Positions 20,533-33,340 of a stretch of DNA of 64,000 nucleotides are shown piece after piece; the stretch's first letter is position 1; every line of letters starts with the position of its first letter. Below the pieces are notes generated by a model that ran no database searches, had not been told where the DNA came from, and was given only the letters and a program-made list of their open reading frames with translations. Both the position numbers and the translations under genes were made by a program. Source of the stretch: Streptomyces griseiscabiei (lineage in GTDB: Bacteria > Actinomycetota > Actinomycetes > Streptomycetales > Streptomycetaceae); NCBI RefSeq assembly GCF_020010925.1, contig NZ_JAGJBZ010000001.1, positions 3,575,001 to 3,639,000 on the forward strand, given 5' to 3'.

Positions 20533-20615
20533 GGTCGTCACCCTACGACGCCGCGGTTCGCGGCCCGCACCGGCTTAGAGTGGAACGTATCGAGGCGTCT
20601 TCTGGGGGTGCGGAC

Positions 20616-21515
20616 GTGGCGAACGGCGGTCCTGTCGAGCACGGCTACCCGCATCTGGAGACCGTGCGGGCGTCGATCACCGCGCTGTACAAGCGGCTCT
20701 CCTACGACACGGTGCAGACCTTCGCCACCAGTGTGGCCCCGGTCGACGTGGCGTTCTGCGACACCGACGACCTGCATCTCGGCGCGCAGCGGGTGGCGCG
20801 GGAGCTGGTGCGGCACTACCGGCTGCCGGACGCCCGGATGATCGTCGGGTTCCGGGAGATGACGCAGGCGGCGAGTGTGGAGCTGACGGCGGGGCCGGAG
20901 TACTTCGTCGAACTGAACGACCGGTTCCGCAACCATCGCCGGGACATCGGGGCGGCTCTCGCGCACGAGGTCATGCACGTCTATCTGCACCGGCTCGGGC
21001 TGTCGTTCCCCGGCACCCGTGACAACGAGATCCTCACGGACACGGCGGCGACCTATCTGGGGGCGGGGTGGCTGCTGCTGGACGCGTTCCGGGAGGACGG
21101 CGCGTCGTCGCAGAAGCTGGGGTATCTGACGCCGGAGGAGTTCGGGTACGTGCTGGCCAAGCGGGCGCAGGTGTTCGGGGAGGATCCGTCGGTGTGGTTC
21201 ACCAGCGCGCAGGCGTACTCCGCGTTCGCGGAGGGCCGGGTGCGGGCGCTGCGGGACGAGCGGCAGCCGCCGCTGACGGCGGCGGGGTGGGCGGGGCGGC
21301 GTCGGTACGCGCGGGATCGCCGCCATGCGCGGGACGACCTGCGGTCGGCCTCGCCGGGGGTGGGGGTGCCGTATGTGTTCTCGCCGGAGGGGCGGGGGGC
21401 GTTGCGGGTGTCATTTCCCTGTCCTACGTGTCATCAGCGGATTCGGGTGCCGGTGCGGGGGCGGGTGCGGGCTCGGTGTGGGTTGTGCCGGACGGTGTTG
21501 GAGTGCGACACGTAG
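20616..21515 (+). CDS. Uncharacterised HExxH zinc-protease-like protein with C-terminal zinc ribbon
   Basis: A 299-residue protein of unknown function. Residues 115-126 read ALAHEVMHVYLH: an HEVMH gluzincin-type motif at 117-121. A following acidic segment (RDNEILTDTAATYLGAG) resembles the third-ligand helix of small intracellular metallopeptidases. The last 33 residues form a zinc ribbon with C269, C272, C288 and C291. There is no signal peptide or membrane segment. I choose GTG 20616 because GGGGG sits seven bases before it; an upstream GTG at 20580 is in frame. It is divergent from chorismate mutase and followed by a dispersed repeat. Confidence 0.75.
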   Translation: MANGGPVEHGYPHLETVRASITALYKRLSYDTVQTFATSVAPVDVAFCDTDDLHLGAQRVARELVRHYRLPDARMIVGFREMTQAASVELTAGPEYFVELNDRFRNHRRDIGAALAHEVMHVYLHRLGLSFPGTRDNEILTDTAATYLGAGWLLLDAFREDGASSQKLGYLTPEEFGYVLAKRAQVFGEDPSVWFTSAQAYSAFAEGRVRALRDERQPPLTAAGWAGRRRYARDRRHARDDLRSASPGVGVPYVFSPEGRGALRVSFPCPTCHQRIRVPVRGRVRARCGLCRTVLECDT

Positions 21516-21630: not shown

Positions 21631-22563
21631 TCATGAGGCGCCGTAGACCGGGTGGGGTGTCTTCGCCTCGGCCAGGAGATTTCGTACGGTCTCTCCCGCC
21701 TCCTCCGGGGTGCGGCGGGCGCCCTTGTCCTCGGTCGGGCCCGGGCGCCAGCCCTCCATGACGGTGATGCGGCCGCCCTCCGTCTCGAAGACCCGGCCGG
21801 TGACGCCCTCGCTCGCGGGGGAGCCCAGCCAGACGACCAGGGGGGAGACGTTCTCGGGGGCCATCGCGTCGAAGCCGGTGCCCGGGGCCGCCATGGTCGC
21901 GGCGAAGGCCGTCTCGGTCATACGGGTGCGGGCGGCGGGGGCGATGGCGTTGACCTGGACGCCGTAGCGGGTGAGTTCGGCGGCGGCGACGAGGGTGAGG
22001 CCGACGATGCCCGCCTTGGCGGCGCTGTAGTTGCCCTGGCCGAGTGAGCCGAGCAGGCCCGCGCCGCTGCTGGTGTTGACGACGCGCGCGGCCGGGACGC
22101 GGCCCGCCTTGGTCTCGGCGCGCCAGTGGGCGGCGGCGTGTCTCAGGGGGAGGAAGTGGCCCTTGAGGTGGACGCGGAGGACGGCGTCCCAGTCGTCCTC
22201 GTCGAGGTTGACGAGCATGCGGTCGCGCAGGAACCCGGCGTTGTTGACGAGGGTGTCGAGGCGTCCGTAGGTGTCCAGGGCGGTGTGGACGAGGGAGGCG
22301 GCGCCGGTGGTCGTGGCGACGTCCCCGCCGTGCGCGACCGCCTCGCCTCCCCGGGCGCGGATCTCCTCGACGACGCGGGCGGCCGGGCTGTCGGGGGCCG
22401 GGGTGCCGTCGAGTCCCACGCCGAGGTCGTTGACGACGACACGGGCGCCCTCGGCGGCGTACGCGAGCGCGTGCGCCCGTCCGAGGCCGCGGCCCGCGCC
22501 GGTCACGATGACCACGCGCCCCTCGCAGAGCCGCTCGGTGCGGTACGGGTGGGTGCCGCTCAT
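21631..22563 (-). CDS. Short-chain dehydrogenase/reductase (Rv3548c-like)
   Basis: A 310-residue SDR with cofactor motif TGAGRGLG at 21-28, NNAG and the YSAAK catalytic pair. The extended early loop (VVVNDLGVGLDGTPAPDSPAARVVEEIRA) is typical of the 17-beta-HSD4-like bacterial SDRs. It is the outermost gene of the catabolic island and starts within the stop of the upstream SDR (ATGA). In mycobacterial KstR2 clusters an SDR of this length (Rv3548c) sits beside a second SDR and echA20; the match in order supports the assignment. The reaction is not established. Confidence 0.85.
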   Translation of the reverse strand: MSGTHPYRTERLCEGRVVIVTGAGRGLGRAHALAYAAEGARVVVNDLGVGLDGTPAPDSPAARVVEEIRARGGEAVAHGGDVATTTGAASLVHTALDTYGRLDTLVNNAGFLRDRMLVNLDEDDWDAVLRVHLKGHFLPLRHAAAHWRAETKAGRVPAARVVNTSSGAGLLGSLGQGNYSAAKAGIVGLTLVAAAELTRYGVQVNAIAPAARTRMTETAFAATMAAPGTGFDAMAPENVSPLVVWLGSPASEGVTGRVFETEGGRITVMEGWRPGPTEDKGARRTPEEAGETVRNLLAEAKTPHPVYGAS

Positions 22564-23312
22564 CGTCGTTCTCCTTCGTCGGTGGGGGCGTTCGCCGCGT
22601 CCAGGAAGGCCGGGCGTTCGCCGCCGCCGTGGACGAGGAGGGAGGCTCCGGTGATGTAGGACGCCGCGTCGGAGGCGAGGAAGACGGCCGCCCCGCCGAC
22701 GTCGGCGGGGGTGGCGAGGCGGCCCAGCGGGACGGTCCGGGCGACGGCGGCCACGCCCTCCTCGTCGCCGTAGTGGAGGTGGGCGAGTTCGGTGTGGACC
22801 AGGCCGAGGACGAGGGTGTTGACCCGGATCTCCGGGGCCCATTCCACGGCCATGGAGCGCGCGAGGTGGTCGAGGCCTGCCTTGGCCGCGCCGTACGCCG
22901 CCGAGCCGGGTGAGGGGCGGCTGCCGCTGACACTGCCGATCATCACGATCGTGCCCCGGGCCCGCCGGAGCTGGGCGTGGGCGGCGAGGGAGACGGTCAG
23001 CGGGGCGGTGAGGTTGAGTTCGATCACGCGCGCGTGGCGGCGGGCGTCGGCATCGGTGAGGGGGCGGTAGGGGGTGCCGCCGGCGTTGTTCACGAGGACG
23101 TCCACGCGGGGCAGTTCGGCGAAGAAGCGGTGCGCGGCGTCGGGGTCCCGGACGTCCAGTGGTCTGAACTCGGTTCCTTCGAGCGGTACTTCGGGCGGGC
23201 GGCGGGCGCAGGTCACGACCTCGGCGCCGGCTTCGGCGAGGGCGCGGGCGATGCCGGCGCCGATGCCGCGTGTGCCGCCGGTGACGACGGCGAGCTTCCC
23301 GTTGAGCGGCAT
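22560..23312 (-). CDS. Short-chain dehydrogenase/reductase (Rv3549c-like)
   Basis: A 250-residue classical SDR: TGGTRGIG at 11-18, NNAGG, a serine in MIGSVSGS and YGAAK as catalytic Tyr/Lys. It begins MPLNGKLAVVTGG with a GGAAGG ribosome site nine bases upstream. It is divergent from the EchA20-like gene, and the 65-bp gap between them contains the proposed KstR2-type operator. By position it equals Rv3549c of the mycobacterial cluster. Substrate unproven, probably a hydroxyacyl-CoA of the ring C/D pathway. Confidence 0.87.
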   Translation of the reverse strand: MPLNGKLAVVTGGTRGIGAGIARALAEAGAEVVTCARRPPEVPLEGTEFRPLDVRDPDAAHRFFAELPRVDVLVNNAGGTPYRPLTDADARRHARVIELNLTAPLTVSLAAHAQLRRARGTIVMIGSVSGSRPSPGSAAYGAAKAGLDHLARSMAVEWAPEIRVNTLVLGLVHTELAHLHYGDEEGVAAVARTVPLGRLATPADVGGAAVFLASDAASYITGASLLVHGGGERPAFLDAANAPTDEGERR

Positions 23313-23340
23313 CCGCTGCTACCTTCCGCACAAGGACGCA

Positions 23341-23356
23341 CCAAACAAACGTTAGG
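23341..23356. promoter_or_regulatory. Proposed KstR2-type operator, copy 1
   Basis: The 16-mer CCAAACAAACGTTAGG is an imperfect palindrome in the 65-bp divergent promoter between the two island arms. It shares 13 of 16 bases with copy 2 at 29530-29545. Against the published KstR2 motif (AnCAAGnnCTTGnT) this copy matches about six of ten fixed bases, so the case rests mainly on similarity to copy 2 and on position. Confidence 0.6.
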
Positions 23357-23377
23357 TGGAAGGTAGCTGATGCTCCG

Positions 23378-24172
23378 ATGAGTGTCTCCACCTCGTCCCC
23401 GGAAAAGGGGATTTCCGTCGTCACCGTCGACTTCCCACCGGTGAACGCGCTGCCGGTGCGCGGGTGGTTCGAGCTGGCCGACGCCGTGCGCGCGGCGGGC
23501 CGCGATCCCGGGACGCGGTGTGTGGTGCTGGGTGCGGAGGGGCGCGGGTTCAACGCCGGGGTGGACATCAAGGAGATCCGGGCGGCGGGGCAGGGTGCGC
23601 TGCTCGGCGCCAACCACGGCTGCGCGGAGGCCTTCGCCGCCGTGTACGAGTGCGAGGTTCCGGTGGTCGCCGCCGTGCAGGGGTTCTGTCTGGGCGGCGG
23701 GATCGGGCTGGTGGGCAACGCGGACGTGATCGTGGCCAGCGAGGACGCGACGTTCGGGCTGCCGGAGCTGGACCGGGGCGCGCTGGGCGCGGCGACGCAT
23801 CTGTCACGGCTGGTGCCCCAGCATCTGATGCGCGCGCTGTTCTACACCTCGCGTACGGCGACCGCCGCCGAGCTGTTTGCGCACGGTTCGGTGTGGCGGG
23901 TCGTACCGCGTGCCGAACTGCCTTCCGCAGCACTGGAGTTGGCGCGGGAGATCGCCGCGAAGGACGGCCGGCTGCTGCGGCTGGCCAAGGCCGCGCTCAA
24001 CGGTATCGACCCCGTGGACGTCCGCCGCAGCTACCGCTTCGAGCAGGGCTTCACCTTCGAGGCGAACCTCAGCGGGGTGGCCGACGAGGTCCGCGACACG
24101 TTCGGGACGGCCGGGAAGGCGATGGGGTCCGGGAAGGCGATGGAGTCCGGGAAGGAGCGCTCGGGTGAGTGA
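23378..24172 (+). CDS. echA20: Enoyl-CoA hydratase/isomerase family hydrolase (EchA20-like)
   Basis: A 264-residue crotonase-fold protein: oxyanion-hole segments RGFNAGVDIKEI and GFCLGGGIGLVGNADVIVAS, trimerisation helix toward the C-terminus. The last 20 residues contain a short repeated unit (GKAMGSGKAMESGK). In the mycobacterial ring C/D pathway EchA20 hydrolyses the ring D of HIEC-CoA. Position directly before IpdA- and IpdB-like genes on the same strand is the basis for the specific call. Its stop is inside the start of the next gene. Confidence 0.82.
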   Translation: MSVSTSSPEKGISVVTVDFPPVNALPVRGWFELADAVRAAGRDPGTRCVVLGAEGRGFNAGVDIKEIRAAGQGALLGANHGCAEAFAAVYECEVPVVAAVQGFCLGGGIGLVGNADVIVASEDATFGLPELDRGALGAATHLSRLVPQHLMRALFYTSRTATAAELFAHGSVWRVVPRAELPSAALELAREIAAKDGRLLRLAKAALNGIDPVDVRRSYRFEQGFTFEANLSGVADEVRDTFGTAGKAMGSGKAMESGKERSGE

Positions 24173-25013
24173 CAAGACCATGACCGCCGAGGAGGCCGTC
24201 GCGCGGCTGGAGAGCGGGATGACGCTCGGCATCGGCGGCTGGGGCTCGCGCCGCAAGCCGATGGCGCTGGTGAGGGCGCTGCTCCGGTCCGGGGTCACCG
24301 ATCTCACGGTGGTCTCGTACGGCGGTCCGGACGTCGGCATGCTGGCCGCCGCCGGTCGCGTCCGGAAGCTGGTCGCCGCCTTCGCCACCCTCGACTCCAT
24401 CCCCCTGGAACCGCACTACCGCGCGGCGCGCGAGCGGGGCGCGTTCGAGCTGATGGAGATCGACGAGGCGATGTTCATGTGGGGTCTGCGGGCCGCCGCG
24501 CACCGGCTGCCCTTCCTGCCGGTGCGGGCGGGCATCGGCTCGGACGTGATGCGGGTCAACCCCGGTCTGCGGACGGTCACGTCGCCCTACGACGACGGGG
24601 AGACCTTCGTCGCCGCGCCCGCCCTGCGCCTGGACGCCGCGTTCGTGCACGTCAACCGGGCCGACCGGCAGGGCAACGGCCAGTATCTGGGCCCGGACCC
24701 GTACTTCGACGACCTCTTCTGCGAGGCGGCCGACACGGCGTACGTGTCGTGCGAACGGCTCGTGGAGACGGCCGAGCTGGCGAAGGAGGGCCCGCCCCAG
24801 TCGCTGCTGGTCGGCCGCCATGTGGTGACGGGAGTGATCGAGGCCCCGAACGGCGCGCACTTCACCTCCTGCGCCCCCGACTACGGCCGGGACGAGGCCT
24901 TCCAGAAGCTGTACGCGGGCACGCCGTGGGAGGAGTTCGCCGGGCGGTTCCTGGCGGGTGACGAGGCCGCCTACCGGTCGGCCGTGCGGGAGTGGCAGGG
25001 GGAGGGCGCGTGA
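24165..25013 (+). CDS. ipdA: CoA-transferase family alpha subunit, IpdA-like ring C hydrolase
   Basis: A 282-residue class I CoA-transferase alpha-type subunit (LESGMTLGIGGWGSRRKPMAL at the start; VNPGLRTVTSPYDDGE in the middle). In the KstR2 regulon, IpdA and IpdB act together not as a transferase but as a COCHEA-CoA hydrolase opening the last steroid ring. The GTG at 24165 has GAAGGAG seven bases upstream and overlaps the EchA20 stop. The stop overlaps the next start. Assignment rests on subunit sizes, family and island context. Confidence 0.83.
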   Translation: MSDKTMTAEEAVARLESGMTLGIGGWGSRRKPMALVRALLRSGVTDLTVVSYGGPDVGMLAAAGRVRKLVAAFATLDSIPLEPHYRAARERGAFELMEIDEAMFMWGLRAAAHRLPFLPVRAGIGSDVMRVNPGLRTVTSPYDDGETFVAAPALRLDAAFVHVNRADRQGNGQYLGPDPYFDDLFCEAADTAYVSCERLVETAELAKEGPPQSLLVGRHVVTGVIEAPNGAHFTSCAPDYGRDEAFQKLYAGTPWEEFAGRFLAGDEAAYRSAVREWQGEGA

Positions 25014-25759
25014 ACGAGGGGCCGATGACGAACGGTGCGACCCGCGCCGAGTACTGCGTGATCGCGTGCGCCGAGGCCTGGCGCGGCGCCGGGGAGATCC
25101 TCGCCAGTCCGATGGGGCTGGTCCCGGCACTGGGCGCCCGCCTCGCCCGGCGGACCTTCGCACCGGACCTGTTGCTGACCGACGGCGAGGCCCTGCTCGT
25201 CGACGTCGACGGCGCCGTGGAGGGGTGGCTGCCCTACCGCCGGCACCTGGAGCTGGTCACCGGCGGCCGGCGGCACGTGATGATGGGCGCGAGCCAGCTC
25301 GACCGGTACGGCAACCAGAACATCTCGTGCGTCGGCGACTGGGCGAGGCCGAGGCGGCAGCTGCTGGGGGTACGGGGCGCGCCGGTCAACACCCTGAACA
25401 ATCCGACCAGTTACTGGGTTCCGAAGCACTCCCGGCGGGTCTTCGTCGAGAAGGTCGACATGGTGTGCGGGGTCGGCCACGACCGGGTGGCCGAGCATCC
25501 CGCCGCCGCCAGCTTCCACCACCTCCCGCGTGTCGTGTCCGACCTCGGGGTGTTCGACTTCGCCACGCCGGACCGGACGATGCGGCTGGCCTCGCTGCAT
25601 CCCGGGGTCACGGTCGAGCGGGTCCGGGAGGCGACCGGCTTCGCGCTCGCCGTCCCCGACGAGGTGCCGTACACCCGGGAGCCCTCGGCGGAGGAGCTGC
25701 GGTTGATCCGTGTGGTGCTCGACCCGGCGGGCACCCGCGCCCGTGAGGTCCAGGGCTGA
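25010..25759 (+). CDS. ipdB: CoA-transferase family beta subunit, IpdB-like ring C hydrolase
   Basis: A 249-residue beta-type subunit, the length I recall for mycobacterial IpdB (about 250). It begins VNEGPMTNGATRAEYCVIACAEAW; the ASPMGLVPALGARLA and MGASQLDRYGNQNISCVGD segments mark the CoA-transferase beta fold. The catalytic glutamate found in true transferases is replaced in IpdB enzymes; I cannot align it by eye here. GTG 25010 overlaps the IpdA stop; ATG 25025 is an alternative. Confidence 0.83.
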   Translation: MNEGPMTNGATRAEYCVIACAEAWRGAGEILASPMGLVPALGARLARRTFAPDLLLTDGEALLVDVDGAVEGWLPYRRHLELVTGGRRHVMMGASQLDRYGNQNISCVGDWARPRRQLLGVRGAPVNTLNNPTSYWVPKHSRRVFVEKVDMVCGVGHDRVAEHPAAASFHHLPRVVSDLGVFDFATPDRTMRLASLHPGVTVERVREATGFALAVPDEVPYTREPSAEELRLIRVVLDPAGTRAREVQG

Positions 25760-26808
25760 TGGAGACGGCACTCACCCGGCTCGTCGGCGTCCGCCATCCG
25801 CTCGTGCAGACCGGGATGGGCTGGGTCGCCGGCCCCCGGCTGGTCTCCGCCACGGCGAACGCGGGAGCGCTCGGCATCCTGGCCTCCGCGACCATGACGC
25901 CCGCGCGACTCCGGGACGCCGTGAGGGAGGTGCGGTCCCGTACGGACGGCGCGCCCTTCGGGGTGAACCTGCGGGCCGACGCGGGTGACGCGCGGGAACG
26001 GGTGCGGATCATCGTCGAGGAGGACGTGCGGGTCGCGTCGTTCGCGCTCGCGCCGTCCAGGGAGCTGATCGCCGAGCTGAAGGACGCGGGTGTGGTCGTG
26101 ATCCCGTCGGTCGGTGCCCGGCGGCACGCCGAGAAGGTCGCGGCGTGGGGTGCGGACGCGGTGCTGGTGCAGGGCGGCGAGGGCGGCGGCCACACCGGGG
26201 AGGTGGCGACGACCGTGCTGCTGTCGCAGGTCGTGGACGCCGTCGACATCCCCGTCGTCGCGGCCGGCGGCTTCCACGACGGGCGCGGGCTGGTGGCGGC
26301 GCTGGCGTTCGGGGCGGCCGGGGTCGCGATGGGCACCCGGTTCCTGCTCACCTCGGACTCGACGGTGCCCGACGCGGTGAAGGCCCGCTATCTGGCCGCG
26401 ACGGTCAAGGACGTCACCGTCACCAGGGCCGTGGACGGGCTGCCGCACCGGATGCTGCGCACGGAGTTGGTGAGCGCGCTGGAGGCGTCCGGTAGGGCGC
26501 GCGCCCTGCTGCGCGCCGTGCGCCACGCGGCCGGCTTCCGGCGGCTCTCCGGGCTCACCTGGCGCCGTATGGTCCGCGACGGCCTCGCGCTGCGGCACGG
26601 CAAGGACCTCACCTGGAGTCAGGTCCTGCTCGCCGCCAACACGCCGATGCTGCTCCGGTCCGCGATGGTGGACGGCCGTACGGACCTGGGGGTGATGGCG
26701 GCCGGGCAGGTCGCCGGGGTGATCGACGACCTGCCGTCGTGCGCGGAGCTGGTGGAGCGGATCATGAAGGAGGCGGACGAGGTACGGACGCGGCTCGGAC
26801 GCGGCTGA
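25759..26808 (+). CDS. ipdC: FMN-dependent nitronate monooxygenase-family enzyme, IpdC-like
   Basis: A 349-residue TIM-barrel flavoprotein of the 2-nitropropane dioxygenase family. FMN-binding marks: QTGMGWVAGPRL at the start, VQGGEGGGHTGEV in the middle and AAGGFHDGRGLVAALAFGAAGVAMGTRF after it. In the KstR2 pathway IpdC is a reductase/dehydrogenase acting on the bicyclic acyl-CoA rather than a nitronate oxidase. The start overlaps the IpdB stop by one base (TGATG). Last plus-strand gene of this arm, 18 bases from the convergent FadA6-like stop. Confidence 0.84.
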   Translation: METALTRLVGVRHPLVQTGMGWVAGPRLVSATANAGALGILASATMTPARLRDAVREVRSRTDGAPFGVNLRADAGDARERVRIIVEEDVRVASFALAPSRELIAELKDAGVVVIPSVGARRHAEKVAAWGADAVLVQGGEGGGHTGEVATTVLLSQVVDAVDIPVVAAGGFHDGRGLVAALAFGAAGVAMGTRFLLTSDSTVPDAVKARYLAATVKDVTVTRAVDGLPHRMLRTELVSALEASGRARALLRAVRHAAGFRRLSGLTWRRMVRDGLALRHGKDLTWSQVLLAANTPMLLRSAMVDGRTDLGVMAAGQVAGVIDDLPSCAELVERIMKEADEVRTRLGRG

Positions 26809-26826
26809 CCCCGGCACGCCCTCGGT

Positions 26827-27984
26827 TCACAGCCGCTCGACGATCGTCACGTTGGCCTGCCCGCCGCCCTCGCACATCGTCTGGAGCCCGTACCGGCCGC
26901 CCGTGCGCTCCAGTTCGTGCAGGAGGGTCGTCATGAGCTTGGCGCCGGTCGCTCCCAGGGGGTGGCCGAGCGCGATCGCGCCTCCGTTGACGTTGACCTT
27001 CTCCGGGTCGGCGCCCGTCTCCTTCAGCCACGCCAGGACGACCGGTGCGAAGGCCTCGTTGATCTCGACGAGGTCGATCGCGTCGAGGGTGAGGCCGGTC
27101 TTCTTCAGGGCGTACGCGGTCGCGGGGATCGGCGCGGTGAGCATCCGGATGGGGTCCTCGCCGCGTACGGAGAGGTGGTGCACGCGGGCGCGCGGGGTCA
27201 GCCCGTGCTCCCGTACGGCCCGTTCGGAGGCGAGGAGCAGCGCGGCGGCGCCGTCGGAGACCTGGGAGGAGCAGGCGGCGGTGACGGTGCCGCCGTCGAT
27301 GACCGGCTTCAGGGCGGCCATCTTCTCCAGGGAGGTGTCCCGGCGCGGCCCCTCGTCGACGGTCACGTCCCCGTACGGCACGGTCTCGCGCGCGAAGCGG
27401 CCCTCGTCGACCGCCCGTACCGCCCGCCGGTGGGAGCGCAGCGCGTACTCCTCCTGGTCGCCGCGGCCGATGCCCCACTTGGCGGCGATCATCTCGGCGC
27501 CGGCGAACTGGTTCACCGGCCGGTCCCCGTACCTGGCCCGCCACCCCTCGCTGCCCGCGAAGGGCCCCTCGGTGAGGCCGAGCGGTACGGCGGCCTGGCG
27601 GGAGGCGAAGGCGATGGGGATCATCGTCATGTTCTGGACGCCGCCCGCGACCACCAGGTCCTGGGTGCCGGAGAGCACGGCCTGGGCGGCGAAGTGCACC
27701 GCCTGCTGCGAGGAGCCGCACTGCCGGTCGACGGTCGTGCCCGGCACCTCCTCGGGCAGCCCGGCCGCCAGCCAGCTGGTGCGGGCGATGTCACCGGCCT
27801 GCGGTCCGACGGTGTCCAGGCAGCCGAAGACGACGTCCTCCACGGCGGCGGGGTCCACCCCCGCGCGCGCGACCAGCGCTTTGAGGACGTGTGCGCCGAG
27901 GTCGGCCGGATGGACCCGGCCGAGCCCTCCCCCGCGCCGCCCGACGGGCGTCCGGACCGCTTCGACGATATAGGCCTCGGCCAT
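26827..27984 (-). CDS. fadA6: Acetyl-CoA acyltransferase, FadA6-like thiolase
   Basis: A 385-residue degradative thiolase with nucleophile Cys89 (VDRQCGSSQQA), catalytic His in NGGAIALGHPLGATGA and the second Cys in CEGGGQAN near the C-terminus. It is complete and typical in length. In the ring C/D pathway FadA6 cleaves the open-chain product (MOODA-CoA). It is the last gene of the ipdF-kstR2-fadA6 unit, the same order as Rv3559c-Rv3557c-Rv3556c. Confidence 0.88.
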   Translation of the reverse strand: MAEAYIVEAVRTPVGRRGGGLGRVHPADLGAHVLKALVARAGVDPAAVEDVVFGCLDTVGPQAGDIARTSWLAAGLPEEVPGTTVDRQCGSSQQAVHFAAQAVLSGTQDLVVAGGVQNMTMIPIAFASRQAAVPLGLTEGPFAGSEGWRARYGDRPVNQFAGAEMIAAKWGIGRGDQEEYALRSHRRAVRAVDEGRFARETVPYGDVTVDEGPRRDTSLEKMAALKPVIDGGTVTAACSSQVSDGAAALLLASERAVREHGLTPRARVHHLSVRGEDPIRMLTAPIPATAYALKKTGLTLDAIDLVEINEAFAPVVLAWLKETGADPEKVNVNGGAIALGHPLGATGAKLMTTLLHELERTGGRYGLQTMCEGGGQANVTIVERL

Positions 27985-28025
27985 GGCAACTCCCCTGGTG
28001 TCAAAGGTGCTTCATGTGCGGCGCT

Positions 28026-28709
28026 TCACGTGCGGCTGTTCCGTGCGGGTGTTTCCGTGCCGCCGTGCCCGTGCGGCTGCGCGCGTACGGCGATCCCGTC
28101 CAGCACCATCGACAGGTACTGCCGGGCGATCTCCTCCGGGCTGTACCGTCCGCCCGGCCGGTACCAGGAGGCGGCGACCCAGACGGTGTCGCGCACGAAC
28201 CGGTAGGTGACCCTCGTGTCGAGGTCGGCCCGGAACTCCCCTACGGAGACCCCGCGTTCCAATGTCGACAGCCAGGCCTTCTCGAACTTCGTCCGCGACG
28301 CGTCGAGGAACAGGAACCGGTCCTGGGCGACCAGCTGCTTGGCCTCGTTCTGGTAGATCTCCACGGCGGGCCGGTGCCGGTCGATGGCCCGGAACGACTC
28401 GACGACCAGCGCCTCGAAGGTCTCCCGCGGGCTCCGCCCGGCGTCCAGGACGGCGTCGTACGCCTCCCAGAGCTCGTCGAGGAAGGTCCGCAGGATCTCC
28501 TCCAGCATCGCGTCCTTGGACTCGAAGTAGTAGTAGAGGCTGCCCGCGAGCATGCCCGCGTCGTCCGCGATCCTGCGCACGGTGGTGGCGGTGTACCCCA
28601 CGGCGGCGAAGACGTTGGCGGCCTTGTCGAGGAGTTCCCGGCGACGGGCGGGCGCGGTGTCGGGGGCCTGGGGCCTCTTGGCCGGCTGGGGCTTCTTCTT
28701 GGTCGGCAC
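28026..28709 (-). CDS. kstR2: TetR-family repressor, KstR2-like
   Basis: A 227-residue TetR regulator. The HTH (about 28-65) reads ATTVRRIADDAGMLAGSLYYYF, and the ligand domain contains IYQNEAKQLVAQ and RFVRDTVWVAASWYRPGG. As I recall the M. tuberculosis KstR2 sequence, all three stretches have close counterparts there. KstR2 is released from DNA by the CoA ester of HIP. A lysine/proline-rich head of about 18 residues precedes the domain. GTG 28709 has AAGGAC upstream. It lies 14 bases after the IpdF-like stop, so it is probably in its own regulated operon. Confidence 0.87.
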   Translation of the reverse strand: MPTKKKPQPAKRPQAPDTAPARRRELLDKAANVFAAVGYTATTVRRIADDAGMLAGSLYYYFESKDAMLEEILRTFLDELWEAYDAVLDAGRSPRETFEALVVESFRAIDRHRPAVEIYQNEAKQLVAQDRFLFLDASRTKFEKAWLSTLERGVSVGEFRADLDTRVTYRFVRDTVWVAASWYRPGGRYSPEEIARQYLSMVLDGIAVRAQPHGHGGTETPARNSRT

Positions 28710-28723
28710 GCTGTTCGTTGTCC

Positions 28724-29512
28724 TTACGGGTGCTGGTTGCTGACGGAGACGATCTCACCCGTCATGTACGAGGAGTAGCCGGACGCCAGGAAGACGATCA
28801 CATTGGCCACCTCCCAGGGTTCGGCGTACCGCCCGAAGGCCTCCCGCGCGGTCAGTTCCTCCAGCAGCTCCGGGGTGGTGACCTTCACCAGGTGCGGGTG
28901 CAGGGCGAGGCTCGGCGACACGGCGTTGACGCGGACCCCGTACTCGGCCGCCTCGATCGCCGCGCACCTGGTCAGCGCCATCACCCCGGCCTTCGCCGCG
29001 GCGTAGTGCGCCTGGCCTGCCTGGGCCCGCCAGCCGACGACGGAAGCGTTGTTGACGATCACGCCTCCACCGCTCTCCCGCATCAGCCGCAGGGCGGCCC
29101 GGGTGCACCGGAAGGTGCCGTTCAGGGTCACGTCCAGCACCTTGGACCACTGCTCGTCGGTCATGTCGACGACCGCCGAAGTGCCGCCCAGGCCCGCGTT
29201 GTTGACGACGATGTCGAGCCGTCCGTGCAGCCGGGCGGCCGCCTCGAACAGCGCCCGTACCTGGTCCTCGTCGGTCACGTCGCACGGCACGGCCCGGACG
29301 TTCTCCGCCCCGAACTCGTCGGCCAGCTCGGCCTTGTACTCCTTGAGTCTGCGCGTGTGGGCGTCGCTGATGACGACGCGCGCGCCCTCCTCCAGGAAGC
29401 GCCGCGCCGTCGCTCCGCCGATGCCCGCGCCGGCCGCCGCGGTGATGACGGCGGTGCGGCCGGTGAGGAGGCCGTGGGCGGGGAGGTACGCCGGAGTCTC
29501 GACGTTGCTCAT
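28724..29512 (-). CDS. ipdF: Short-chain dehydrogenase/reductase, IpdF-like
   Basis: A 262-residue SDR, the same length as I recall for Rv3559c (IpdF). Cofactor motif TAAAGAGIG is an unusual variant of TGxxxGxG, with alanines at the start; NNAGLGG and the YAAAK catalytic pair (HYAAAKAGV) are intact. IpdF acts on the 5-hydroxy/5-keto bicyclic CoA ester in the KstR2 pathway. It is the first gene of the minus-strand unit, divergent from the FadE31-like gene, with the second proposed operator in the gap. Confidence 0.84.
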   Translation of the reverse strand: MSNVETPAYLPAHGLLTGRTAVITAAAGAGIGGATARRFLEEGARVVISDAHTRRLKEYKAELADEFGAENVRAVPCDVTDEDQVRALFEAAARLHGRLDIVVNNAGLGGTSAVVDMTDEQWSKVLDVTLNGTFRCTRAALRLMRESGGGVIVNNASVVGWRAQAGQAHYAAAKAGVMALTRCAAIEAAEYGVRVNAVSPSLALHPHLVKVTTPELLEELTAREAFGRYAEPWEVANVIVFLASGYSSYMTGEIVSVSNQHP

Positions 29513-29529
29513 GCGGGCACGCTAACCTA

Positions 29530-29545
29530 CCAAACACTTGTTAGG
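29530..29545. promoter_or_regulatory. Proposed KstR2-type operator, copy 2
   Basis: CCAAACACTTGTTAGG lies in the 49-bp divergent promoter between the IpdF-like and FadE31-like genes. The 14-mer at 29529-29542 fits the published KstR2 motif AnCAAGnnCTTGnT at nine of ten fixed bases (one G to A). It ends just before the GAAGGAG ribosome site of the FadE31-like gene, where bound repressor would block both directions. Confidence 0.75.
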
Positions 29546-29561
29546 GAAGGAGCAGCGCTCC

Positions 29562-30701
29562 ATGGACCTGACCCACTCCCCCTCCGACGAGACCTTCCGC
29601 GCCGAGGCCCGTGCCTGGCTGCGCGCCCACGTCCCCGCCGAGCCGCCGCCCTCCCTGGAGACCGAGGCGGGCTTCGCCGCCCACCGCGCCTGGGAGGCCG
29701 AACTGGCCGCGGACCGCTGGTCGGTGGTGAACTGGCCTGCGGAGTACGGCGGCCGGGACGCGGACCTGTGGCGCTGGCTGGTCTTCGAGGAGGAGTACCA
29801 CGCGGCGGGCGCCCCGGGACGGGTCGGCCAGAACGGCGTCACCCTCCTCGCCCCCACCCTCTTCGACCACGGTACGGCGGAGCAGCGGGCGCGCGTACTG
29901 CCCCCGATGGCCACCGGCGAGGTGGTCTGGGCGCAGGCCTGGTCGGAGCCGGAGGCCGGGTCGGACCTGGCCTCGCTCACCGCCGGGGCCGTACGCACGG
30001 ACGGAGGCTGGCTGCTCACCGGCCAGAAGACCTGGTCGTCGCGGGCGGCCTTCGCGGACCGGGCGTTCGGCCTGTTCCGCAGCGAGCCGGGCACCCCGAA
30101 GCCGCATCAGGGCCTCACCTATCTGATGTTCGACCTGCGCGCGCCGGGCGTGACCGTCCGCCCGATCGGCCGCCTCGACGGGAAGCCCGCCTTCGCGGAG
30201 CTCTTCCTGGACGACGTGTTCGTCCCGGACGAGGACGTGATCGGCGAGCCGGGCCGGGGCTGGCAGATCGCCATGTCCGCCACCGGCAACGAACGCGGTC
30301 TGATGCTCCGCTCCCCGGGCCGCTTCCTCGCCTCCGCGCACCGGCTGTTCGACCTCTGGCGCGCCCAGGGGGCTCCGGCGTCCGCGCACGACCGGGTGGC
30401 CGACGCGCTGATCGGTGCCCGCGCCTACCAGCTCTTCACCCACGCGGCCGCCTCCCGTCTGCTGGAGGGCGCCCCGGCCGGCCCCGAGTCCAGCCTCAAC
30501 AAGGTCTTCTGGTCCGAGTACGACATCGCCCTGCACGAGACGGCACGCGAACTGCTCGGCGAGGAGGGCGAGTCGGCGGACACGGGGTGGTCCGAGGGCT
30601 ATGTCTTCTCCCTGGCCGGCCCGATCTACGCCGGCACCAACGAGATCCAGCGCGACATCATCGCCGAGCGCCTCCTCGGCCTGCCGAAGGGCCGCCGCTG
30701 A
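29562..30701 (+). CDS. fadE31: Acyl-CoA dehydrogenase, FadE31-like
   Basis: A 379-residue flavin acyl-CoA dehydrogenase. Typical segments are NWPAEYGGRDADL, WAQAWSEPEAGSDLAS, TGQKTWSSRA and IYAGTNEIQRDIIAERLLGLP. The last carries Ala where medium-chain enzymes have the catalytic Glu, usual for steroid ACADs whose base lies elsewhere. The overall pattern resembles FadE31 rather than FadE30 as I remember them. The ATG at 29562 has GAAGGAG nine bases upstream. The following smaller dehydrogenase is its likely partner in an alpha2-beta2 complex. Confidence 0.8.
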   Translation: MDLTHSPSDETFRAEARAWLRAHVPAEPPPSLETEAGFAAHRAWEAELAADRWSVVNWPAEYGGRDADLWRWLVFEEEYHAAGAPGRVGQNGVTLLAPTLFDHGTAEQRARVLPPMATGEVVWAQAWSEPEAGSDLASLTAGAVRTDGGWLLTGQKTWSSRAAFADRAFGLFRSEPGTPKPHQGLTYLMFDLRAPGVTVRPIGRLDGKPAFAELFLDDVFVPDEDVIGEPGRGWQIAMSATGNERGLMLRSPGRFLASAHRLFDLWRAQGAPASAHDRVADALIGARAYQLFTHAAASRLLEGAPAGPESSLNKVFWSEYDIALHETARELLGEEGESADTGWSEGYVFSLAGPIYAGTNEIQRDIIAERLLGLPKGRR

Positions 30702-30737
30702 TGCGGGGCCTCCTCATGAAGGGCCGCCGCTGATGCG
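30686..30737 (+). repeat. Short direct duplication at the gene junction
   Basis: GAAGGGCCGCCGCTGATGCG occurs at 30686-30705 and again at 30718-30737, offset 32 bp. The first copy holds the stop of the FadE31-like gene and the second the start of the FadE32-like gene. It looks like a small tandem duplication that moved the original stop-start overlap (TGATG) apart. Confidence 0.7.
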
Positions 30738-31713
30738 TTTCCTCCTGGACACCGAGCAGCGGGCGTTCGCCGCGTCGCTGGACGCCATGCTGACGGCCGC
30801 CGACACCCCGTCCGTCGTACGGGCCTGGGGGCGCGGGGAGCATGAGCCGGGGCGCGCGGTGTGGTCGCGGCTCGCGCAGGCCGGTGTGTTCGCACTGGCG
30901 GCGCCGGAGAAGTACGCGGGAGTCGGCCCGCTCCCCGTCGAACTGGCCGTCGCCTTCGTGGAGTTGGGCCGACACGCGGTACCGGGCCCGCTCGTGGAGA
31001 CGGTGACGGCGGCGGTCCTGCTGGCCGGGCTGGCGGACCCGGGTCCGGCCGAGCGGCTGCTTCCGGCGCTGGTGTCGGGGGAGACCATGGCCACGGTGGC
31101 GCCCGCGCCGGGGGCGTACGCGCTGGACGGCGATGTGGCGACGGCCCGTTTCTCGCTCGACCCGGACGCGGGCGGCGTACGCCTCTCCCCCGGCCACGGC
31201 CCGGTCCGCCCCTCCCTGGACCCGGCCCGCCGCAGGACCCCGCTCTCCCCCGGCGGCGCCCTCCTCCCCACGCACCCGCCCGTCCTCGCCCAGGCCCTGA
31301 CCTGGGCCCGTCTCGCGGTGGCCGCGCAGGCCCTGGGTGTCGGCCTCGCCCTGCTGGACCGGACGGTGACGTATGTCGGGCAGCGCACCCAGTTCGGGGT
31401 GCCCGTCGGCTCGTTCCAGGCGGTGAAGCACCGGCTGGCGGACGCGAAGATCGCCCTGGAGTTCGCGCGCCCCCTGGTCCTCGGCGCGGCGGTCACCCTG
31501 GACCCGGCGGATGTGGCGGCGGCCAAGGTGACGGCGTGCGAGGCGGCGTACGCGACCGCGCGCACGGCGCTCCAGCTGCACGGCGCGATCGGCTACACGG
31601 CCGAGTACGACCTGTCGCTCTGGCTGACCAGGGCCACCGCGCTGCGGTCCGCGTGGGGCGGCCCGAGCGAGTGCCGAGCCGTGGTGCTCAGTGGTGGTGC
31701 CCGCCACCGCTGA
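30733..31713 (+). CDS. Acyl-CoA dehydrogenase small subunit, FadE32/FadE33-like
   Basis: A 326-residue, short acyl-CoA dehydrogenase. The N-terminal helical domain is reduced and the middle beta-domain is divergent (residues about 120-185), while the C-terminal domain keeps RTQFGVPVGSFQAVKHRLADAKIALE and LQLHGAIGYTAEYDL. This is the pattern of beta subunits in heterotetrameric steroid ACADs such as FadE31-FadE32. The ATG at 30733 follows the duplicated junction. Its end overlaps the convergent cytochrome b gene by 26 bases. Confidence 0.8.
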   Translation: MRFLLDTEQRAFAASLDAMLTAADTPSVVRAWGRGEHEPGRAVWSRLAQAGVFALAAPEKYAGVGPLPVELAVAFVELGRHAVPGPLVETVTAAVLLAGLADPGPAERLLPALVSGETMATVAPAPGAYALDGDVATARFSLDPDAGGVRLSPGHGPVRPSLDPARRRTPLSPGGALLPTHPPVLAQALTWARLAVAAQALGVGLALLDRTVTYVGQRTQFGVPVGSFQAVKHRLADAKIALEFARPLVLGAAVTLDPADVAAAKVTACEAAYATARTALQLHGAIGYTAEYDLSLWLTRATALRSAWGGPSECRAVVLSGGARHR

Positions 31714-33340
31714 TCTCGCGGTACTCCTCGGCCGTCGGCTTCGGGATCCGGGTGCCGGGCCCGAACATGGCGCGGGCGAGCCGCGCCCGTACGCGGTCGA
31801 CGCGCCGCACCCGCCGCCGCACCCCGTTCGCGTCGACGACCGGCCCGGGTTCGTACGGCGGGTCCTGTTCGTGCTGGGTGAGCGCGAACAGCTGTGCCTG
31901 GGTGAGGGGTTCGTGGACCTCGACGTACTCGCCGTGCGGAAGCCGTTTGACGATGCCGGTCTCGCGGCCGTGGAGCACCTTGTCGCGGTCGCGGCGTTGC
32001 AACCCCAGACAGATCCGCTTGGTGACGACGAAGGCGAGGACGGGCACCACGAAGAAGCCGATGCGGACGAACCAGGTGATGGCGTTGATGGAGAGATGGA
32101 GACGGGTGGCGACGATGTCGTTGCCGCCGCCGATCAGCAGCACGCCGTAGAGGCTGAGCCAGGCCACGCCCAGGCCGGTGCGGACGGGGACGTTGCGGGG
32201 CCGGTCGAGGAGGTGGTGCTCGCGTCTGTCGCCGGTGATCCAGGCCTCGACGAACGGATACACACCGATGGCCAGCATGATCAGCGGGAAGAGGGAGAAG
32301 GGGATGAGGACGCCGAGGGCGAGGGTGTGTCCGAAGGCGTTGATCTCCCATCCCGGCATCACCCGGATCAGGCCCTCGGAGAAGCCGAGGTACCAGTCGG
32401 GCTGGGCGCCGGTGGTGACCAGGTCCGGGCGGTACGGGCCGAAGGCCCACACGGGGTTGATGGTGGCGACGGCGCCCATGCACGTGAGCACGCCGAAGAC
32501 GAGGAAGAAGAAGCCGCCCGCCTTGGCCATGTAGACCGGCATGAACGGCATGCCGACCACCGACTTCTGGTCCCGTCCGGGCCCGGGGTACTGCGTGTGC
32601 TTGTGGTGGAAGACCAGGATCAGATGGGCGACGATCAGCGCCAGCATGATCCCCGGCAGCAGCAGGACGTGGATCGGGAAGAGCCGGGAGATGATCTCGT
32701 GCCCCGGGAACTCCCCGCCGAAGAGGAAGAACGACAGATACGTGCCCACGATCGGCACGGACAGGATGGCGCCCTGCGCGAAGCGGAGGCCGGTGCCGGA
32801 GAGCAGGTCGTCCGGGAGCGAGTAGCCGGTGAGTCCGGTGATGATGCCGAGGAACAGCAGGGTCCAGCCGAACGCCCAGTTGACCTCGCGCGGCTTGCGG
32901 AACGCGCCGGTGAAGAAGACCCGCATCATGTGGATCAGCATCCCGGCGACGAAGACCAGCGCCGCCCAGTGGTGGATCTGCCGGATCAGCAGACCGCCGC
33001 GTACATCGAAGCTGATCTCCAGCGTGGATTCATAGGCCCGGGTCATCAGGACGCCGTTGAGCTGCTCGTACGTGCCGTGGTACTCGACCTGGACGCCGCT
33101 CGGCTCGAAGAACAGGGTGAGCCAGACACCGGTGAGGATCAGGACGAGGAAGCTGTAGAGGCAGATCTCGCCCAGCATGAAGGACCAGTGGTCCGGGAAC
33201 ACCTTGCGCAGATTGGCCCTGGCGATCCCGTACAGCCCGAGCCGCCCGTCGGCCCAGTCCGCGACCCGCTCCCCCCGGCCCGGCGCGGCCTTCCTCCGGC
33301 CCTCGCCGGCACCCGCCCCGACCGCCCGCACCCCACCCAC
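31688..33340 (-). CDS. qcrB: Orphan cytochrome bc1 complex cytochrome b subunit (QcrB paralogue)
   Basis: A 550-residue membrane protein, close in length to actinobacterial QcrB. Haem-ligand histidine pairs are seen in RQIHHWAALVFVAGMLIHMMRVF and FPIHVLLLPGIMLALIVAHL. The quinol-site motif is present as PDWYLGF, and the C-terminal cytoplasmic tail is rich in basic residues. No qcrC, qcrA or cytochrome oxidase gene is adjacent, so it is a second, solitary copy that would need partners from the main qcrCAB locus. GTG 33340 has GGGAGGG six bases upstream. It is convergent with, and overlaps, the FadE32-like gene. Confidence 0.92.
   Translation of the reverse strand: MGGVRAVGAGAGEGRRKAAPGRGERVADWADGRLGLYGIARANLRKVFPDHWSFMLGEICLYSFLVLILTGVWLTLFFEPSGVQVEYHGTYEQLNGVLMTRAYESTLEISFDVRGGLLIRQIHHWAALVFVAGMLIHMMRVFFTGAFRKPREVNWAFGWTLLFLGIITGLTGYSLPDDLLSGTGLRFAQGAILSVPIVGTYLSFFLFGGEFPGHEIISRLFPIHVLLLPGIMLALIVAHLILVFHHKHTQYPGPGRDQKSVVGMPFMPVYMAKAGGFFFLVFGVLTCMGAVATINPVWAFGPYRPDLVTTGAQPDWYLGFSEGLIRVMPGWEINAFGHTLALGVLIPFSLFPLIMLAIGVYPFVEAWITGDRREHHLLDRPRNVPVRTGLGVAWLSLYGVLLIGGGNDIVATRLHLSINAITWFVRIGFFVVPVLAFVVTKRICLGLQRRDRDKVLHGRETGIVKRLPHGEYVEVHEPLTQAQLFALTQHEQDPPYEPGPVVDANGVRRRVRRVDRVRARLARAMFGPGTRIPKPTAEEYREISGGGHHH

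Follow-up and report, generated by a model that had tools for sequence, protein, structure and literature searches.

Does a streptomycete that carries the genes for the last two steroid rings degrade steroids, or are these genes fed from elsewhere? The question is raised by a locus of Streptomyces griseiscabiei, situated in a stretch of 64 kb (the window; contig C1, positions 3575001-3639000) of a 10.6-Mb genome assembled in 8 contigs and 99.94% complete. An earlier note, made from the letters of the window, had described positions 21631-31713 as an island of eleven contiguous genes in the order of the mycobacterial KstR2 cluster. In this study, the window cluster was compared with known loci, and its distribution and partner genes were searched for in 295 genomes of the genus. 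As judged by sequence, the cluster is orthologous, gene by gene, to the KstR2 regulon for HIP, the bicycle of steroid rings C and D. It probably constitutes a KstR2-repressed catabolic cluster converting HIP-CoA, or a closely related 7a-methyl-hydrindane acyl-CoA, into central metabolites.

Eleven genes match the mycobacterial KstR2 cluster

The list of open reading frames (ORFs) of the window showed 11 adjoining intact ORFs in this region (Table 1). The same 11 were recovered by a codon-usage caller, whose training set consisted of these and two other window genes. The 80 best named KstR2-like loci, mostly with Mycobacterium or Mycolicibacterium titles, were fetched, and four of the 80 were compared: those of M. 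aurum (L122), M. chubuense (L088), M. terramassiliense (L055), and M. houstonense (L110). Reciprocal best hits (RBHs) were determined for the 11 window proteins and 8 proteins from relatives against the genes called in the fetched loci, not against whole proteomes. Rv names were transferred via gene order from Table 1 of PMC5380842, and the M. tuberculosis genes themselves were compared solely through solved structures.

All 11 window genes were the RBH of their positional counterpart wherever the counterpart was in the fetched stretch. Two comparisons gave no RBH: the first short-chain dehydrogenase/reductase (SDR1) against L122, a locus that stops short of the partner gene, and FadE31 against L055, whose partner gene is incomplete; in L110, IpdC, FadA6, and KstR2 alone were matched, the other eight having no match in the fetched stretch. 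Orthologues of echA20, ipdA, ipdB, ipdC, ipdF, and fadA6 are thereby all found together in the window cluster. Order and strand were those of the mycobacterial loci, with two SDR genes on the minus strand, echA20-ipdABC on the plus strand, fadA6-kstR2-ipdF on the minus strand, and fadE31-fadE32 on the plus strand. The gene list and order given in the earlier note were thus borne out, and best matches to unrelated CoA-transferase or thiolase clusters were not found. Its remark that generic annotation misses the pathway was also correct. General libraries name the ORFs SDR, crotonase, CoA transferase, nitronate monooxygenase (NMO)/FabK, thiolase, TetR, and acyl-CoA dehydrogenases; IpdA and IpdB matched the generic CoA-transferase Pfam model alone, and IpdC matched NMO alone, plus FabK under the cut-off. 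EchA20 had no solved structural relative at 1e-25.

Table 1. Genes and putative operators of the window cluster (window positions; percentages are identities to the mycobacterial counterparts, followed by the number of loci giving an RBH; scores are set beside the model cut-off)
Feature	Position	Strand	Evidence
SDR1, Rv3548c orthologue	21631..22563	-	RBH 65-66% (2/2, L088/L055); NCBIfam NF005861 499 bits, cut-off 373
SDR2, Rv3549c orthologue	22560..23312	-	RBH 52-53% (3/3, one cut by locus end); NF005893 370 bits, cut-off 255
Putative KstR2 operator CACCAAACAAACGTTAGGTG	23339..23358	.	SDR2/echA20 divergent promoter; similar site in 14/14 genus promoters
EchA20, predicted HIEC-CoA ring D hydrolase	23378..24172	+	RBH 66-68% (3/3); NF005925 409 bits, cut-off 260
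IpdA, predicted COCHEA-CoA hydrolase alpha subunit	24165..25013	+	RBH 53-58% (3/3)
IpdB, predicted COCHEA-CoA hydrolase beta subunit	25025..25759 (alternative start GTG 25010)	+	RBH 52-54% (3/3)
IpdC, predicted NMO/FabK-type 5-OH-HIC-CoA oxidoreductase	25759..26808	+	RBH 66-68% (4/4, one cut); PF03060 290 bits
FadA6 thiolase	26827..27984	-	RBH 64-66% (4/4); NF005865 701 bits, cut-off 591
KstR2, predicted TetR repressor	28026..28709	-	RBH 46-47% (4/4)
IpdF SDR	28724..29512	-	RBH 63-64% (3/3); NF005880 453 bits, cut-off 336
Putative KstR2 operator TACCAAACACTTGTTAGGGA	29528..29547	.	ipdF/fadE31 divergent promoter; one mismatch from mycobacterial motif
FadE31 acyl-CoA dehydrogenase	29562..30701	+	RBH 60-61% (2/2 whole); FadE30 of same loci just 37%
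FadE32 acyl-CoA dehydrogenase, probable small-subunit partner of FadE31	30733..31713	+	RBH 44-48% (2/2)

Signatures of IpdAB and KstR2

Comparison with solved structures gave 329 bits for IpdA to IpdA (6co6), with the next family at 89, and 301 and 275 bits for IpdB to IpdB, with the next family at 59. Glu101 of IpdA was aligned with the residue replaced by Ala in 6coj, which we take to be the catalytic glutamate. The ENG motif of the genome's own CoA-transferase beta subunits was absent from IpdB, as it was from two known IpdBs aligned.

The window TetR scored 214 and 186 bits to KstR2 (2ibd, 4w97), the next structure scoring 80. The positions of Arg162 and Trp166 of KstR2, presumably ligand contacts, are conserved in it. 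Four of the five KstR2 ligand-domain motifs given in PMC13176608 had a similar counterpart by eye, for example STFLDELWAGYDAVL versus RTFLDELWEAYDAVL and YRFIRDTVW versus YRFVRDTVW. The window TetR is, on these comparisons, a member of the KstR2 family, as the earlier note had supposed, and not a regulator outside that clade.

Operator-like sites at the divergent promoters

The mycobacterial KstR2 motif was taken by us to be AnCAAGnnCTTGnT. In the four mycobacterial loci, 9 exact boxes were detected, all intergenic: at the echA20/SDR2 promoter in 3/3 loci containing it, at the fadD3/fadE30 promoter in three loci, and before kstR2 in three. Two further matches with one mismatch were both in coding sequence. 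At the window cluster promoters the exact box was absent, and a variant motif was present at both instead. The pattern common to the two divergent promoters was ACCAAACAnnnGTTAGG, with the cores CAAACAAACG and CAAACACTTG as compared with CAAGnnCTTG in mycobacteria. Allowing one mismatch, the mycobacterial motif had 3 matches in the 64 kb (0.23 expected), one of them at the ipdF/fadE31 promoter.

A 20-base operator consensus was built from the echA20 promoters of the genus, and each stretch was compared with 200 base shuffles. Scores of 18-20 were obtained in 14/14 genus echA20 stretches (the window and 13 loci), and 0/200 shuffles of each reached them; since the consensus was drawn from the sequences that it then scored, conservation is indicated and not binding. 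A score of 15 was found in 11 of 13 genus fadE31 stretches. The exceptions were L035 and L041; because fadE31 is preceded there by an additional crotonase gene, the stretch scored was not the divergent promoter. The consensus did not rise above the shuffles in 2/2 loci of another family (L037, L038).

A first, tighter palindrome pattern gave nothing informative. A wider regulon in the genome was considered and rejected: at no more than 2 mismatches the operator pattern had 43 genome matches and the reversed control 24, and four other places that were read (L023-L026) were coding or between ORF 3′ ends. Two of these places are in coding sequence, namely C1:3640075, within an ORF of 369 aa, and C4:206167, where an ORF of 385 aa ends; C3:399882 is flanked on both sides by the 3′ ends of ORFs. 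At C1:2674421-2674503 (L023:8422-8504), four near-identical near-palindromes with a AAACGTTTG-like core lie in and slightly beyond the interval of about 100 bases that separates two ORFs converging at their 3′ ends.

Search for the ring A/B pathway

No clear orthologue of KshA or HsaA, taken to represent the classical ring A/B pathway, was found in the window genome; KstD was not searched for, and CYP125 in fetched stretches only. The best KshA match (KshA_C, PF19298) scored 91 bits (Pfam cut-off 23) and shared 25% identity with M. aurum KshA (82% coverage). Over the 295 genomes, the 79 passing E 1e-10 with KshA_C fell into two groups, with 263-321 bits in 28 and no more than 101 bits in the 51 others, and the window genome belonged to the low group. 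The best HsaA match scored 79 bits (26%). Reference hsa genes of M. aurum were reached via an HsaB search.

HsaC-like genes of the window genome scored 219, 199, and 131 bits, as against 261-307 bits in 26 of the 28 KshA-positive genus genomes. Over the 295 genomes, 78 had an HsaC match at 1e-25; 26 of them, all KshA-positive, reached at least 261 bits, and the next score was 233. The HsaB-like reductase of the window genome scored 178-183 bits, under the cut-off of 230. On these results, the classical 9,10-seco route is unlikely in this strain. Growth on sterols is not supported.

As a positive control, genus genome G275 (L188/L189) has a complete steroid cluster. It carries the same ipd genes, 59-85% identical to those of the window. 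Its kshA, kshB, and hsaA-D adjoin them, and its fadE30 is next to ipdF; for the window strain, the genes of this list either lie elsewhere or were not found.

The three HsaC-like genes lie at C1:454933-455787, 320948-321799, and 1775839-1776687. The first two have HsaD-like hydrolases adjoining (28% and 37%), and these pairs are perhaps for aromatic meta-cleavage. At C1:1748219-1749388 (L165:8219-9388), away from other steroid-like genes, lies a gene for an acyl-CoA dehydrogenase that shares 47% identity with the product of the M. aurum gene assigned as ChsE2/FadE29.

FadD3 and FadE30 are encoded on another contig

FadD3 had a single strong match in the genome, at C4:599115-600740 (594 bits, next 228), which scored 783 bits with NCBIfam NF005801 (cut-off 657). 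In a tree of 22 ligases, it grouped with mycobacterial FadD3 and the cluster-near FadD3 of genome G023 with 100/100 support, apart from eight other ligases of the genome, several of whose branches were long. FadE30 was located at C4:563011-564186, 63% identical to a relative's in-cluster FadE30 and 56% to that of M. chubuense. A FadE33-like protein, 42% identical to a relative's FadE33, is encoded at C4:584700-585953 and scored 209 bits with the IpdE2 model, under the cut-off of 450.

Adjoining fadD3 on contig C4 are genes for an Ltp2-type thiolase (NF005892, 586 bits, cut-off 469), a ChsH2-type DUF35 protein, and a crotonase, and the locus has its own TetR gene (TetR_C_38). The arrangement of these four genes was the same in 9/9 FadD3 loci fetched from relatives, which were chosen among the matches listed. 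The best reading is that HIP-type degradation in this strain would rely on FadD3 and FadE30 encoded elsewhere in the genome, with a distant and conserved activation locus.

The surrounding region, C4:554182-620319 (L146-L149), is a large catabolic region with FadD3, FadE30, the FadE33-like protein, two Ltp-type thiolases, and two ChsH2-type proteins. An HsaB-like reductase, luciferase-like (LLM) oxidoreductases, and Amidohydro_2 proteins are also encoded there.

Distribution and co-occurrence in the genus

IpdA was present at E <= 1e-60 in 209 of the 295 sampled genus genomes (206/288 among high-quality ones). Full-strength IpdA (at least 459 bits) was found in 21/25 genus genomes, the window genome included, and IpdA at 367-385 bits in 10/14 genomes of a further family. 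The FadD3 family (E <= 1e-190) was detected in at least 192/295 genomes, at least 191 of these over the curated cut-off. These tallies are lower bounds, as scoring was limited to about five candidates per genome; the window genome is itself a known false negative of the genus scan, with 5 of its 83 candidates scored.

FadD3 was detected in at least 189 of 209 IpdA-positive genomes versus at least 3 of 86 IpdA-negative ones (Fisher p about 1e-49, uncorrected for shared ancestry), and two of the three IpdA-negative carriers (G001, G097) are just 78-79% complete. KshA at full score was present in 28 of the 295 genomes, all IpdA-positive; therefore, 181 of the 295 (about 61%) have the C/D module without the classical A/B pathway. 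At least 161 of these 181 have FadD3.

Proposed pathway

The proposed steps were modelled on Crowe et al. 2017 (PMC5380842), and it is by this analogy that we infer every reaction, effector, and substrate. FadD3, encoded outside the window, would make the CoA thioester, and FadE30, likewise outside the window, would shorten the propanoate together with β-oxidation enzymes. IpdF and IpdC would then give HIEC-CoA, EchA20 would hydrolyse ring D, and IpdAB would hydrolyse ring C. FadA6 is expected to yield MOODA-CoA, which an enzyme of FadE31 and FadE32 may oxidise. KstR2 would repress at both divergent promoters until an acyl-CoA effector builds up. Since no classical A/B pathway was found in the strain or in about 61% of the sample, the module would receive its substrate either through import of HIP-like fragments or from an upper pathway so far unrecognised. 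The earlier note had proposed degradation of the bicyclic remains of sterols, bile acids, or a related terpenoid; the bicycle stands, as HIP or a HIP-like compound and with FadD3 and FadE30 supplied from elsewhere, and the sterols and bile acids are not supported, no clear KshA or HsaA having been found.

Several observations weigh against a KstR2-controlled HIP cluster. Genes for FadE30, FadD3, and a FadE33-like protein are missing from the window cluster, whereas the M. aurum and M. chubuense loci have all three. The best curated model for FadE32 was IpdE2, at 142 bits, far under the cut-off of 450. The third KstR2 motif of PMC13176608 was unmatched in the window TetR; that motif occurs, according to the paper, in Mycobacteriaceae only. 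Regarding the operators, two of the three one-mismatch matches in the window are away from the cluster, the genome-wide background is high, and the consensus was derived in the circular manner noted above. In the 120 kb read on C4 around fadD3, fadE30, and the FadE33-like gene, no cluster-type operator was found with up to 3 mismatches, and a one-mismatch match to the mycobacterial box was inside the fadD3 coding sequence. The co-occurrence counts ignore phylogeny, so a few ancient losses could inflate the association. Finally, HsaC-like enzymes (44-45%) and an HsaB-like reductase are present in the genome, which makes a non-orthologous A/B pathway possible.

Alternative explanations

That the cluster is a generic set of CoA-transferase, thiolase, and crotonase genes for another acid, unrelated to HIP, is very improbable; the generic library annotation would fit it, but the orthology and synteny of eleven genes, the KstR2 family membership of the regulator, and the catalytic residue of IpdA stand against it. 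Full steroid catabolism by divergent ring A/B enzymes appears improbable as well. It would account for the two best HsaC-like proteins (219 and 199 bits), of which the second has an HsaD-like hydrolase (28%) encoded alongside, for the HsaB-like reductase, and for the ChsE2-like acyl-CoA dehydrogenase and the Ltp2-like thiolase (47% each). Yet the best KshA-like protein reached 91 bits and 25% identity as against 263-321 bits in the high group, the best HsaA-like protein 79 bits and 26%, and the 20-kb stretches around the two best HsaC-like genes held no KshA-, HsaA-, or HsaB-like gene.

Cross-feeding, in which a strain without the upper pathway takes up HIP or similar acids left behind by other steroid-degrading organisms, is quite possible, if somewhat short of an even chance. 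The presence of FadD3 and FadE30 without a clear KshA or HsaA orthologue agrees with it, and PMC8399759 discusses both steroid intermediates outside the cell and cross-feeding. It leaves unexplained the conserved Ltp2, ChsH2, and crotonase genes beside fadD3. Slightly less probable is an undescribed pathway split over two loci, in which a locus of the C4 type would shorten its substrate, an unusual steroid or no steroid at all, to a HIP-like acyl-CoA, and the ipd module would form the lower half. The upper locus would comprise fadD3, the ltp2-type thiolase gene, the ChsH2-type DUF35 gene, and the crotonase gene, and in this strain also acyl-CoA dehydrogenases, the HsaB-like reductase, and the TetR regulator. 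In its favour, that four-gene core is syntenic in 9/9 loci, FadD3 co-occurs with IpdA despite lying on a separate contig in the window genome, and the thiolase scores above the Ltp2-type cut-off. However, the chemistry suggested is retro-aldol cleavage and β-oxidation alone, with no ring-opening oxygenase identified; the HsaB-like reductase, at 183 bits, is under its cut-off; the 9/9 synteny is a result for the four core genes; and the co-occurrence may stem from few shared losses. We lean slightly to cross-feeding as the simpler explanation, and the Ltp2 and ChsH2 genes argue for more chemistry than cross-feeding. It is possible, though less likely than not, that most genomes of the genus have such a two-locus pathway, with a FadD3-family ligase and Ltp2/ChsH2-type retro-aldolase above and KstR2/ipd below. 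Such a pathway would need neither KshA nor HsaA, and its substrate would be an abundant hydrindane of non-classical kind, either a terpenoid or a sterol already partly degraded.

Relation to known systems

With the KstR2/HIP cluster of mycobacteria and Rhodococcus jostii RHA1 (PMC5380842), the window cluster is comparable through the mycobacterial loci, with which it shares all 11 genes, order, and orientation, and a KstR2-family repressor. A putative operator, with a variant core, lies in the divergent promoter of echA20, where the mycobacterial loci have their box. It differs in the three genes missing from the cluster and in the classical ring A/B pathway not found in the genome. The ipdAB region of Rhodococcus equi, a steroid-degrading species, can be likened by name alone, ipdAB and fadE30 being named in PMC3161971.

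Bergstrand et al. 2016 (PMC4810484) found 55 of 57 Streptomyces genomes without a steroid catabolism pathway. In the present sample, the module for the last two rings was found in 209/295 genus genomes and co-occurred with a FadD3-family ligase, with full-score KshA in 28. In an incomplete literature search covering parts of several papers (including PMC3388012, PMC9782250, PMC5790920, and PMC4482099), no statement was found that Streptomyces widely carries a C/D module where ring A/B genes are lacking, and such a statement may be published. If the enzymes act like their orthologues, a widespread soil genus completes the breakdown of steroid skeletons that other organisms have started, or channels a different ring system through these enzymes; the ipd genes alone would then be no evidence of steroid degradation. 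Laboratory streptomycetes would be possible hosts for the study of HIP enzymes. Crowe et al. refer to work by Hashimoto and Hayakawa (1977) in which MOODA accumulated in a streptomycete given HIP, and the cluster may provide the genetic setting of that observation.

Genomic setting and gene order in relatives

The GC content of the cluster is that of its surroundings. Flanking window genes include those for a peptidase M1, a chorismate mutase, and a cytochrome b. An ORF at 20580-21515 without a Pfam match had a look-alike near the cluster in 7 of the 10 genus loci listed (by eye, first residues). Because the GC is ordinary, IpdA is present in 209/295 genus genomes, and the neighbouring ORF recurs, the reading of the cluster as a horizontal island was rejected, and the word "island" in the earlier note does not hold.

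Intermediate layouts were found in relatives: fadE30 is beside ipdF in L033, L036, L040, and L188, a FadE33 homologue follows fadE32 in L036, and a FadD3 gene is near the cluster in L035. By eye, a helicase-like gene splits the cluster in L031, L032, L033, L034, L040, L041, and L188, between ipdC and fadA6 or after ipdC, and several of these loci also have a small cold-shock-type gene. The cytochrome b gene of the window (31688-33340) and fadE32 overlap at their 3′ ends, in tail-to-tail orientation, and a look-alike adjoins fadE32 in L028 (by eye). The additional crotonase gene that precedes fadE31 has no counterpart in the window cluster; it was observed at L035:4261-5112, L041:16143-16967, and L188:5913-6770, and its products are only 32-34% identical to EchA20.

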